DNA of 64,000 nucleotides from Solimonas soli DSM 21787 (GTDB taxonomy: Bacteria > Pseudomonadota > Gammaproteobacteria > Nevskiales > Nevskiaceae), in NCBI RefSeq assembly GCF_000474945.1, contig NZ_KI440838.1:161433-225432 (forward strand), written 5' to 3'. Under the pieces are notes generated by a model that worked only from the letters and a program-made list of their open reading frames with translations, searched no databases and had not been told where the DNA came from. Shown here one piece after another: positions 58,874 through 64,000 of this stretch. The position numbers were made by a program, and so were the translations under genes. Position 1 is the stretch's first letter. Each line of letters starts with the position of its first letter.

Positions 58874-60841
<1,968 letters not shown>

Positions 60842-60954
60842 GCGGTTCTCCTGAAGCTGGGCTGGGGCGGCGCGGGCCGCATCGTTGTCCTGATGTCGAA
60901 ACATTATTCCGCAATCCGCCGGGCACGTGCCTGCGTCGCGGTGCCGCTCGCGCG

Positions 60955-60986
60955 AAAGCCCCGGCGCGCGGGCCGGGGGCTTTCTT
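60955..60986 (-). terminator. Probable terminator between the transporter gene and acs
   Basis: Arms AAAGCCCCGGC (60955-60965) and GCCGGGGGCTTT (60972-60983) form a strong stem with one bulged G. On the minus strand the trailing T run is short (TTTCG). It lies just after the transporter stop, so acs probably has its own promoter. Confidence 0.55.
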
Positions 60987-60998
60987 GCGCGGCGACGT

Positions 60999-62675
60999 TC
61001 AGTCGTGCGCGTGCAGCGAGCTGCCCTTGGTCTCGCGGACGAACAGCGTGCCGATGATCAGTGTCATCACCGCGATCACGATCGGATACCAGAGGCCGTA
61101 GTAGATGTCGCCGTGCAGGCTGACCAGGGCGAAGGCGATGGTCGGCACGAAGCCGCCGAACCAGCCGTTGCCGATGTGGTACGGCAGCGACATCGAGCTG
61201 TAGCGGATGCGCGTCGGGAACATCTCGACCAGCCAGGCGGCGATCGGCCCGTAGACCATCGTCACGTAGATGACGAGGATCGCGAGCAGGATCACCAGCA
61301 TCGGCTTGTTGACCGCGGCGGGATCGGCCTTCTTCGGATAGCCGGCGGCGGTCAGCGCCTCGCCGAGCGCGCTGCCGAAGGCGGCGTTCTGCTCCTTGAA
61401 GGCCGCCTTGTCGAGGGCCTTGCCGTTGAAGGCGTCGACCGGCGTGCTGCCGATCCGCACCTGCGCCACGGTGCCCGCCGGCGCGGCCTCGTTCGCGTAC
61501 GGGATGCCGGCCTTGGCCAGCGCGCTCTTGGCGATGTCGCAGGAGCTGTTGAAGACCTTCTTGCCGACCGGGTCGAACTGGAAGCTGCACTGTGCCGGAT
61601 CGGCGATCACGGTGACCGGGCTGGTCGCCGCGGCCGTCTCGAGCGCCGGATTGGCGTAGTGCGTGATCGCCTTGAAGATCGGGAAGTAGGTCAGCGCCGC
61701 GATCAGGCAGCCGGCCATGACCACGGACTTGCGGCCGATGCGGTCGGACAGCCAGCCGAAGAAGATGAAGAACGGCGTGCCGATCAGCAGGCCGGCGGCG
61801 ACCAGCAGATTGGCGGTCGTCGCGTCGACCTTCAGCGTCTGCGTGAGGAAGTACAGCGCGTAGAACTGGCCGGTGTACCAGACCACGGCCTGGCCGGCGG
61901 TGGCGCCGAACAGGGCGAGAATGACGATCTTGAGGTTCTTCCACTGGCCGAAGGCTTCCGAGAGCGGCGCCTTCGAATGCTTGCCTTCCTCTTTCATCTT
62001 CTTGAACAGCGGCGACTCGTTGAGCTGCAGGCGGATGTAGACCGAGATCGCCAGCAGCAGCGCCGAGACGAGGAAGGGAATGCGCCAGCCCCAGGCCTCG
62101 AAGGCCTCGGTGCCGAGCGCGAGCCGGCAGCCGAGGATCACCAGCAGCGAGAGGAACAGGCCGCCGGTCGCGGTGGTCTGGATCCAGCTCGTCGCGTAGC
62201 CGCGGTTGTCGTCGCGCGAGTGCTCGGCGACGTAGGTCGCGGCGCCGCCGTACTCGCCGCCGAGCGCGAGGCCCTGCAGCAGGCGCAGCGAGATCAGGAT
62301 CACCGGCGCGGCGACGCCGATCGAGGCGTAGCTCGGCAGCACGCCGACCAGGAAGGTCGACAGACCCATGATCAGGATGGTGACGAGGAAGGTGTACTTG
62401 CGGCCGACCAGATCGCCGAGCCGGCCGAACACCAGCGCGCCGAACGGCCGCACCGCGAAGCCGGCGGCGAAAGCCAGCAGCGCGAAGATGAAGGCGCTGG
62501 TGTCGTTGAGGCCGGAGAAGAACTGCCTGGCGATGATCGCCGCCAGCGAGCCGTAGAGGTAGAAGTCGTACCACTCGAAGACGGTGCCGAGCGATGACGC
62601 GAAGATCACGCGCCGCGCTTCCGATTTGCCGATCGTGGTCTGCGAGGCACCCAAGGTGCCGGCCGGGCTGCTCAT
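60999..62675 (-). CDS. MHS-family MFS transporter (metabolite/proton symporter)
   Basis: A 558-residue major facilitator of the metabolite:H+ symporter group (ProP/KgtP/ShiA-like). [17 protein letters not shown] starts it, then [43 protein letters not shown] and the second [16 protein letters not shown]. About 115 residues between two late helices form an extra hydrophilic loop with two Cys (DPAQCSFQF...NSSCDIAKS), explaining the excess over the usual 430. Substrate unknown; beside acs a short carboxylate is plausible. GAGGAGAAC precedes the ATG. Confidence 0.9.
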
Positions 62676-62746
62676 ATTGCTGTTCTCCTCGATGTCGTTA
62701 TGGCCGTTGCGGATTCCCGCGCGCAGACGGCGTCAGCAGTCTGCAC

Positions 62747-62762
62747 AGCAGGACCGATGCCA
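62747..62762 (-). promoter_or_regulatory. Candidate sigma-54 promoter of the MHS transporter
   Basis: On the minus strand TGGCATCGGTCCTGCT carries the GG-N10-GC spacing that defines -24/-12 promoters; TGGCA and TGC match the consensus. Transcription would start near 62735, about 60 bases before the ATG. A 19-base palindrome lies 50-70 bases upstream, where enhancer-binding proteins act. Confidence 0.5.
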
Positions 62763-62813
62763 TGATCGAGAATGAATGAAAACAGGGACTTGAGGGTTAC
62801 AGCCCGATGACGG

Positions 62814-62840
62814 CTGTTACGTGACGTAACAGCACGTAAC
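62814..62840. promoter_or_regulatory. GTTACGT palindrome with a third half-site
   Basis: CTGTTACGTGACGTAACAG (62814-62832) is a perfect inverted repeat with 9-base arms around one G. A third half-site ACGTAAC follows at 62834-62840, and a GTTACAG at 62796-62802. It lies in the 250-base gap upstream of the transporter gene and is best read as a binding site for a dimeric regulator. Confidence 0.65.
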
Positions 62841-62842
62841 AA

Positions 62843-62888
62843 AACGAAAGCGGCGCGGCTGCCTGGGAGTGCAAGCATGCCGCGCCGC
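62843..62888 (-). terminator. Terminator of the esterase gene
   Basis: Read on the minus strand, a perfect 10-bp GC stem (arms 62879-62888 and 62850-62859) with a 19-base loop is followed by TTTCGTTTTGTT. It lies about 40 bases after the esterase stop and insulates the transporter's regulatory region. Confidence 0.75.
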
Positions 62889-62928
62889 AAGTACCGCAAC
62901 TCTCCGGCCGCCCGCACCGGCTGCGGGC

Positions 62929-63942
62929 TCAGCGCGGGTGCGCGCTGAAGAAGCTCCACATCTCGGCGTTGATGCTGAAATCCTGGCTGGTCTTGCCGAT
63001 CAGCGACTCGGACATGTACTGGCGCCCGCCCGGCCAGGTGTGGCCGCCGTTGTTGACGATGTACTGCCGCACTTCGCCGCCGCTGCCGCAGCCGACATTG
63101 CGCAGCAGGGTCGTCGTCGTGCCGTCGGCGGCGGTGTCGGGCAAGGCCACGCTGCTCGTCGCGCTCGCCGTGCAGTTGTGGCGCGACAGCCAGAACGAGA
63201 AGGCGTCCGGCGCCGACAGCACGCCGACGCGCCCGCCGTTGAACGGCACGATGGGGTCGGCGCTGCCATTGACCAGGATCACCGGCCGCGGCGTGGCCGG
63301 CGCGCAGGCCAGCGACAGGCCCTTGCTGATGGTGCCGGCGACCAGGGCGATCGCCGCGATGCGGTCCGACAGCTCGCAGCCGAGGCGCTCGGCCATGAAC
63401 GCGCCGTCCGACAGGCCGCTGAGATAGAGGCGGTCGGCATCGAGGCCGAGGTAGCCGGTGACGATGTCGATGACCTTGGCGTGGAAGCCGACGTCATCGG
63501 TGCCGTTCGAGTAGCCGGGATCATCGTTCCAGCCGCCGTCCAGCGCTTCCGGCAGGATCGCCCAGTAGCCGTTGGCGACCACGCTCTCGGCGATGACCGT
63601 CAGGTTCGACTGCGCTTCCGGCGTGCCGCCGGTGCCGTGCAGCACGAACACCGCCGGCGCGTTCGCATTGGCCGGCTCCGGCCGCACGACGAGGAAGCGG
63701 CGCGTGGCGCCAGCGTGCGCGAAGCTGATGTCGAAGGCCGCCGAGCCGCGCGGCAGGGTCAGCAGACGACCGTTGATCGTGACGACGGTGTTGGCCGTCA
63801 GCTTGCCGGCCTTCTTGGCGTCGGAGACGGTAAGGTCACCGATGGGGCCGGTGTAAGCACCGACGAAATTGCTGACGGTGGCGGCGAAAGCCGGCGTGGT
63901 GCCAAGCAGGGCGGCGAGCAGTATCAACAGGCGCATAGACAT
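62929..63942 (-). CDS. Secreted PHB depolymerase/feruloyl esterase family protein (LpqC-like)
   Basis: A 337-residue exported alpha/beta hydrolase with a signal peptide (LLILLAALLGTTPAFA). FVLHGTGGTPEAQ is the oxyanion loop, YLSGLSDGAFMAERL the nucleophile elbow with Ser178, then VNGSADPIVPFNGG and NNGGHTWPGG with the likely Asp and His. An N-terminal stretch of about 70 residues precedes the hydrolase domain. Family members cleave polyhydroxybutyrate or feruloyl/acetyl esters; which applies is unclear. GGGAGAAA precedes the ATG. Confidence 0.87.
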   Translation of the reverse strand: MSMRLLILLAALLGTTPAFAATVSNFVGAYTGPIGDLTVSDAKKAGKLTANTVVTINGRLLTLPRGSAAFDISFAHAGATRRFLVVRPEPANANAPAVFVLHGTGGTPEAQSNLTVIAESVVANGYWAILPEALDGGWNDDPGYSNGTDDVGFHAKVIDIVTGYLGLDADRLYLSGLSDGAFMAERLGCELSDRIAAIALVAGTISKGLSLACAPATPRPVILVNGSADPIVPFNGGRVGVLSAPDAFSFWLSRHNCTASATSSVALPDTAADGTTTTLLRNVGCGSGGEVRQYIVNNGGHTWPGGRQYMSESLIGKTSQDFSINAEMWSFFSAHPR

Positions 63943-64000
63943 TTTCTCCCATGACGCTGTGAGCGTAAGCCGGCCCGGCTCCGCGCGGCGCGCCGTTCGT

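Follow-up and report, generated by a model that had tools for sequence, protein, structure and literature searches.

The window, that is, the whole 64 kb stretch of DNA analyzed, belongs to a genome of 4.19 Mb (G000). On its minus strand, which is the promoter direction used below, positions 60999–62675 were found to encode a transporter of the MHS family (metabolite:H+ symporter) of 558 aa, the proposed controlled gene. The protein scored 356.5 bits against TIGR00883, below the cut-off of 443.45, and is referred to here as TIGR00883-related. The same strand carries acs, encoding acetate--CoA ligase, at 58874–60841 (TIGR02188, 1005.7 bits, above the cut-off). Between the two genes lies a 157-bp gap (60842–60998, minus strand) having a GC-rich hairpin and TGCGGAATAAT, an extended -10-like sequence ahead of acs that is common to G000 and the related genomes G006 and G010. 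The hairpin is a weak terminator candidate: a terminator scan scored it on the plus strand only, and shuffled sequences gave 1.1 such matches. The acs gene may have its own promoter, separate from the transporter transcript, although this is only hinted at because the hairpin is terminator-like on the other strand only. The first-pass annotation had taken the promoter, with acs downstream, as pointing to regulated carboxylate uptake; comparative genomics supported the uptake, but the adjacent acs may not simply be co-transcribed.

Upstream of the transporter gene, a sigma-54 -24/-12 element, TGGCATCGGTCCTGCT (TGGCAT-N6-TGCT), was located at 62747–62762 on the minus strand, and a 19-base palindrome, CTGTTACGTGACGTAACAG, with the core GTTAC-N5-GTAAC at 62814–62832. 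The palindrome, a proposed CbrB dimer site, lies 51 bases upstream of the element, its center being 61 bp upstream of the -24 T, and a search of the window tolerating 3 mismatches or fewer matched nothing else (mean in shuffled sequences, 0.01). It is accompanied by two further minus-strand half-sites, namely a distal TGTTAC at 62836–62841, separated from the palindrome by 4 bp (in G006 and G010 it reads CGTGAC), and an R2-like, promoter-proximal GTAACC at 62795–62800, N14 downstream of it (GTCACA in G010 and a weak GTCATC in G006). In the promoter direction, the array thus reads TGTTAC(62841–62836)-N4-TGTTAC(62831–62826)-N5-GTAACA(62820–62815)-N14-GTAACC(62800–62795). The GG-N10-GC promoter, which the first-pass annotation had placed at 62747–62762 (minus) about 50 bases from the palindrome, was confirmed with an exact gap of 51. 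The palindrome and the third half-site it described were likewise borne out, but the half-sites number four rather than three; its suggestion that this is the geometry of a sigma-54 enhancer-binding protein gained support from comparative genomics, the spacing being kept in relatives.

Sigma-54 elements were scored against the consensus GG-N10-GC with TGGCAC/TTGC context, which is present in TGGCATCGGTCCTGCT with a score of 9/11. Twelve elements of this score, and none better, were found on both strands of the window (128 kb of strand), and the chance of one in any 100-bp single-strand stretch is about 1%. Taken by itself, the match is weak evidence; the case for the element is strong because it is conserved, at exactly 61 bp from the palindrome center in G000, G006 and G010. 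If the GG-N10-GC were a chance match, as its score and the dozen comparable elements in the window would allow, the palindrome could work with a sigma-70 promoter in the manner of the CrbR ACTU motif. However, no sigma-70-like promoter was found in 60700–63050 of the window, the element and its 61–62 bp spacing recur in five relatives (G006, G010, G017, G028 and G036), and the twin site at a porin gene described below has TGGCAC-N5-TTGC. A chance match is thus highly improbable.

A genome search for the palindrome, which had been put forward as the way to find the regulator, revealed GTTAC-N5-GTAAC at exactly two places in G000, and the reversed control pattern at none. The second place (contig C6:239279–239293) is in the interval separating cbrA from a divergently oriented porin gene of the DcaP type (PF19577), and the search thereby led to a CbrB-type response regulator of the NtrC family. 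Downstream of this palindrome, the sigma-54 element TGGCACAGCGCTTGCC (TGGCAC-N5-TTGC) ends 55 bases before the porin ATG. The cbrAB genes, about 9 kb beyond the window end, encode an SLC5-STAC-PAS histidine kinase (cbrA, C6:236131–239052) and an NtrC-family response regulator with REC-AAA+-Fis architecture (cbrB, C6:234780–236114). Besides SLC5-STAC, CbrA has PAS, HisKA and HATPase_c domains, and its residues 13–592 (580 aa) matched PDB 10ED, the structure of Pseudomonas CbrXA (PMC13022988), at 3.9e-164. CbrB passed no NCBIfam equivalog cut-off among 25 listed; it is 53% identical over its whole length to CbrB of P. fildesensis, and the C-terminal recognition helix reads SRKTLWERR in G000 and SRKCLWERR in P. 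fildesensis. Judged by sequence, CbrA and CbrB are likely orthologous to the Pseudomonas pair, and the regulator of the window promoter is best identified as a CbrB-type, NtrC-family protein. G000 also encodes a sigma-54 factor (3 Sigma54_DBD matches), and a site of the form TGTTAC-N10-GTAACA is present at C13:55243 (L068).

In Pseudomonas, the CbrB subsites are given as TGTTAC/GTAACA (PMC6296734, PMC8871633), and the published site, TGTTAC-N12-14-GTAACA-N15-19-GTAACA, is described as non-palindromic; on the grounds of such sites and of the lack of dimers in vitro, it has been argued that the initial binding of CbrB is monomeric (PMC8871633). The G000 system resembles Pseudomonas CbrA/CbrB (crcZ, crcY and oprD promoters) in having an SLC5-STAC-PAS kinase beside an NtrC-family regulator with a near-identical recognition helix, several TGTTAC/GTAACA half-sites per promoter, and sigma-54 targets with a porin among them. 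In contrast, its geometry is palindromic with N5, it is proposed to act on a carboxylate permease and a DcaP porin, and its host is apparently outside Pseudomonadaceae, with a CbrA apart from that of P. fildesensis in the tree. When the window array was read as outer-F, R1 and R2, the spacings of N15 and then N14 fell just outside both published CbrB ranges; those of the P. fildesensis crcZ promoter (L084) are N14 and N16. The extra inner half-site (N5) is what turns a Pseudomonas-like array into a palindrome.

A CrcZ-like RNA after cbrB in other families was considered and rejected. CrcZ was found by Rfam in L084, after P. fildesensis cbrB, and in none of L021, L082 and L083, nor in 7 class loci at gathering thresholds. 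A-rich CA-type motifs numbered 0–3 per 420 bases at 16 sites, whereas Pseudomonas crcZ has 25; at those 16 sites, a reading frame of at least 120 aa also begins within about 300 bases. The same P. fildesensis locus contains an acs-like gene (L084, 18046–19947) about 6.6 kb from cbrB, 51% identical to the window acs, which hints at an old linkage.

In a sample of G000 and 60 relatives, CbrB orthologs were found in 8 of the 61 genomes, G000 included (at least 61% identity; next matches, at most 47%). At all eight loci, cbrA adjoins cbrB and a palindrome lies within 600 bp upstream of cbrA. Six of the eight genomes have a sigma-54 element 61–62 bp from a palindrome center at a permease gene: in G006 and G010, as in the window, the MHS gene is preceded by a palindrome (the second in each) whose center is exactly 61 bp away from the element, and G017, G028 and G036 have the pair (61–62 bp; one mismatch in the G036 palindrome) before yjcH-actP-acs. 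In G031, the palindrome and an element at 63 bp precede an acs-like gene. In G007, one contig carries the palindrome and another the sigma-54 element of the MHS gene, the two being separated by an insertion beside the palindrome; the insert (L062:1–450 and the L232 tail) contains a transposase-like frame and provides a natural test of how much distance is tolerated. No sigma-54 element was in range of extra palindromes in G036 (L295) and G028 (L296).

Of the 21 palindromes in the eight CbrB genomes (reversed control, 7), 17 are no more than about 20 kb away from cbrB, and the 53 genomes lacking CbrB contain 16 in all (reversed control, 76). These control counts in the same genome groups indicate that GTTAC-N5-GTAAC is not common through composition. 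Twelve of the 16 palindromes were checked in fetched loci, and for 2 of these a sigma-54 match lay within 150 bp but was weak (score 8). When the pattern was relaxed to 17 bases with 2 mismatches, it matched 12 of the 61 genomes, 5 with and 7 without CbrB. The elements, their conservation and the exclusive pairing with cbrAB in G000 are shown at the sequence level.

A profile built from the eight CbrB proteins identified CbrB in 37 of 369 sampled class genomes (28 of 272 genera) at a threshold of 1e-150 or better, and stretches from the 36 genomes besides G000 were taken as class loci. The cbrA gene adjoins cbrB in 34 of these; the G138 contig starts just before cbrB, and none was found in G200. 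A palindrome with N5 is contained in 28 of the 36 stretches; in 22 of the 36, one is positioned upstream of cbrA at a distance of 600 bp or less. Together with the 8 family loci and 3 named loci (P. fildesensis, a Pseudomonadaceae MAG and one other gammaproteobacterium), these made up 47 CbrB loci (814 kb); the named loci were the best 3 of at least 80 matches listed, those from the fourth onward showing at most 50% identity and being taken as other NtrC-family regulators. The N5 palindrome was absent from all three named loci, including the P. fildesensis stretch. Over the 47 loci, the exact N5 palindrome occurred 56 times, in 36 loci, against a Markov expectation of 0.2, and any other spacing from N0 to N20 occurred at no more than 3 places (counts halved, as both strands match). 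Allowing one mismatch gave a smaller rise at N14–N17, consistent with outer half-sites.

Pairing with sigma-54 elements was assessed for 57 palindromes (these 56 and that of the window), counting elements with a score of at least 9 at 30–200 bp on either side. Such an element accompanied 32 of the 57 palindromes vs 5% of random points in the loci, which were not confined to intergenic DNA. The 35 palindrome-to-element distances clustered at 59–63 bp (12) and 80–83 bp (6), the rest being at 67–73, 86, 93–95 and 106–130 bp. Among the 25 palindromes with no element in range, 20 (in 20 class loci) lie within 600 bp upstream of cbrA, where autoregulation or control of a divergent gene is possible. 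The genes after class promoters include acs (G260), and CbrB-type sites with sigma-54 elements were also seen in other families before genes for DUF294/CBS proteins, an SSF symporter and Peripla_BP_6 binding proteins (L200, L209, L205, L201 and L218). The CrbS/R regulon of P. fluorescens is described as taking in a putative signal-transduction protein (PMC5715377).

The palindrome might instead serve a different sigma-54 activator, or a repressor, as operator, its nearness to cbrAB being coincidental. Repressor operators, too, are typically perfect palindromes, G000 encodes, in addition to CbrB, 13 sigma-54 activators that match AAA+ strongly, and the half-sites in Pseudomonas are spaced differently. 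However, the concentration of the palindrome in CbrB loci as against its scarcity in genomes lacking CbrB, its coupling to sigma-54 elements at preferred distances, and the agreement of both half-site and recognition helix with Pseudomonas all argue for CbrB, and we consider a different regulator improbable. Sites of NtrC itself, TGCACC-N5-GGTGCA, share the 6-N5-6 palindrome geometry, the Fis-type dimer and the position upstream of a sigma-54 promoter, but the half-site sequence in G000 differs, and G000 has a separate NtrC (L004; TIGR01818, 713.7 bits, above the cut-off).

According to a 2022 review, CbrAB is unique to Pseudomonadaceae (PMC8871633). Compared with the loci described above, both this range and the non-palindromic nature of the sites look too narrow. 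SLC5/STAC kinases are described among all bacterial phyla (PMC9100948), and the kinase family itself is therefore not new.

Similar gene sets were found with a second system, CrbS/CrbR (MxtR/ErdR), in which CrbR is a LuxR-type regulator and the ACTU inverted repeat accompanies an RpoD promoter (PMC5715377). Like CbrAB in G000, CrbS/CrbR has the DcaP porin, an MHS or YjcH-ActP permease and acs alongside in several close relatives; unlike CbrAB, it uses the LuxR-type regulator, the ACTU motif and the RpoD promoter. The MHS gene has close homologs in genomes without CbrB: in G032, G021 and G029, it has CrbS, CrbR and a DcaP-type porin on its flanks and acs next in order, and GACTAAAGTC, a fit to the CrbR motif ACTU, is contained in the gap ahead of the MHS gene. 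CrbS accompanies yjcH-actP-acs in G012, G018 and G019, with CrbR also adjacent in the first two; a strict ACTU pattern matched upstream of yjcH in G019 and next to the porin gene in G018, and had no match in G012. CrbS, CrbR, porin and acs occur together in G003, G004 and G005, where the strict pattern detected no ACTU. Four genomes of the same genus (G001, G002, G008 and G009) have acs with neither CbrB nor full-length CrbS, and G033 has MHS and acs, likewise with neither.

No full-length CrbS was found in the eight CbrB genomes, four of which show a match to the kinase part only, and G000 gave no CrbS match at E 1e-90 or better. The core ACT[AT]ANGTC, which is narrower than the full degenerate ACTU logo, was absent from 60000–64000 of the window and from the eight cbrAB stretches. 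Control of the window promoter by ACTU/CrbR was accordingly rejected, and the CrbR-like matches in G006, G007, G010, G017, G028 and G036 were not accepted as CrbR because these six genomes lack full-length CrbS. Among 37 genomes of the family, CbrB is present in 8, CrbS in 14, and both in none (chance of no overlap, 0.013, kinship ignored). In a kinase tree, 43 CbrA rows, including P. fildesensis, were separated from 8 CrbS rows with full SH-aLRT support (quick search, midpoint root).

With CbrB as the binding protein, the regulon might still be devoted, as it is in Pseudomonas, to amino acids or to scavenging under carbon starvation rather than to acetate. Both MHS and DcaP proteins transport several different carboxylates. 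In Pseudomonas, the use of histidine and of other carbon sources is under CbrAB control, as is carbon catabolite repression (PMC8871633), and histidine recognition by CbrA is named in the structure paper (PMC13022988). Against this, acs lies 4–13 kb from cbrB in six of seven checked genomes (on another contig in the seventh) and within the fetched stretch at 20 of the 36 class loci; sites with sigma-54 elements stand directly before acs or an acs-like gene (G260 and G031) and before yjcH-actP (G017, G028 and G036); and CrbS/CrbR, a known acetate system, adjoins the same kinds of genes in several genomes lacking CbrB. A regulon other than acetate is therefore the less likely reading, though one that keeps an appreciable chance. 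The arrangements in G260 and G031, as distinct from the window, suggest direct action of CbrB on an acs-type gene.

Taken together, the window promoter is very probably a CbrB-activated, sigma-54-dependent promoter for carboxylate, probably acetate, uptake, whose array is the binding site of a CbrB-type activator. In the proposed mechanism, CbrA would sense carbon supply or a carboxylate and phosphorylate CbrB, which would bind the GTTAC-N5-GTAAC palindrome as a dimer while the flanking half-sites recruit further subunits. The assembled CbrB would then open RNA polymerase-sigma-54 at TGGCAT-N6-TGCT and turn on the MHS permease for a carboxylate, most likely acetate, and the twin site next to cbrA would switch on the DcaP-type outer-membrane porin. 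CbrB binding and dimerization, RpoN dependence, the signal and the acetate substrate are what we infer here, the last because of the gene neighborhood and the role of CrbSR. Points to the contrary are that N5 differs from the spacings published for Pseudomonas, that 25 of the 57 palindromes are without a sigma-54 element, and that G000 has the 13 other activators.

We further favor, with some reserve, a broader proposal: in many gammaproteobacterial families, CbrAB would be a regulator of acetate/carboxylate uptake with the CbrB dimer on a perfect GTTAC-N5-GTAAC, the loose, non-palindromic sites of Pseudomonas, like its CrcZ output, would be derived features, and CbrAB and CrbS-CrbR would have been swapped within a family, and even a genus, sometimes together with cis sites to match, at porin-permease-acs cassettes of the same kind. 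Systems of this kind are already known; in the literature searched (PMC articles), no description was found of CbrAB or a palindromic CbrB site outside Pseudomonadaceae, of carboxylate-uptake targets or of exchange with CrbSR. Perfect palindromes at preferred sigma-54 distances provide a clean DNA substrate for testing CbrB dimerization, and the CbrB regulon outside Pseudomonas is perhaps much simpler. Since the family genomes searched have either CbrAB or CrbSR, never both, at similar cassettes, the evolution of transporter-kinases becomes testable within a genus.
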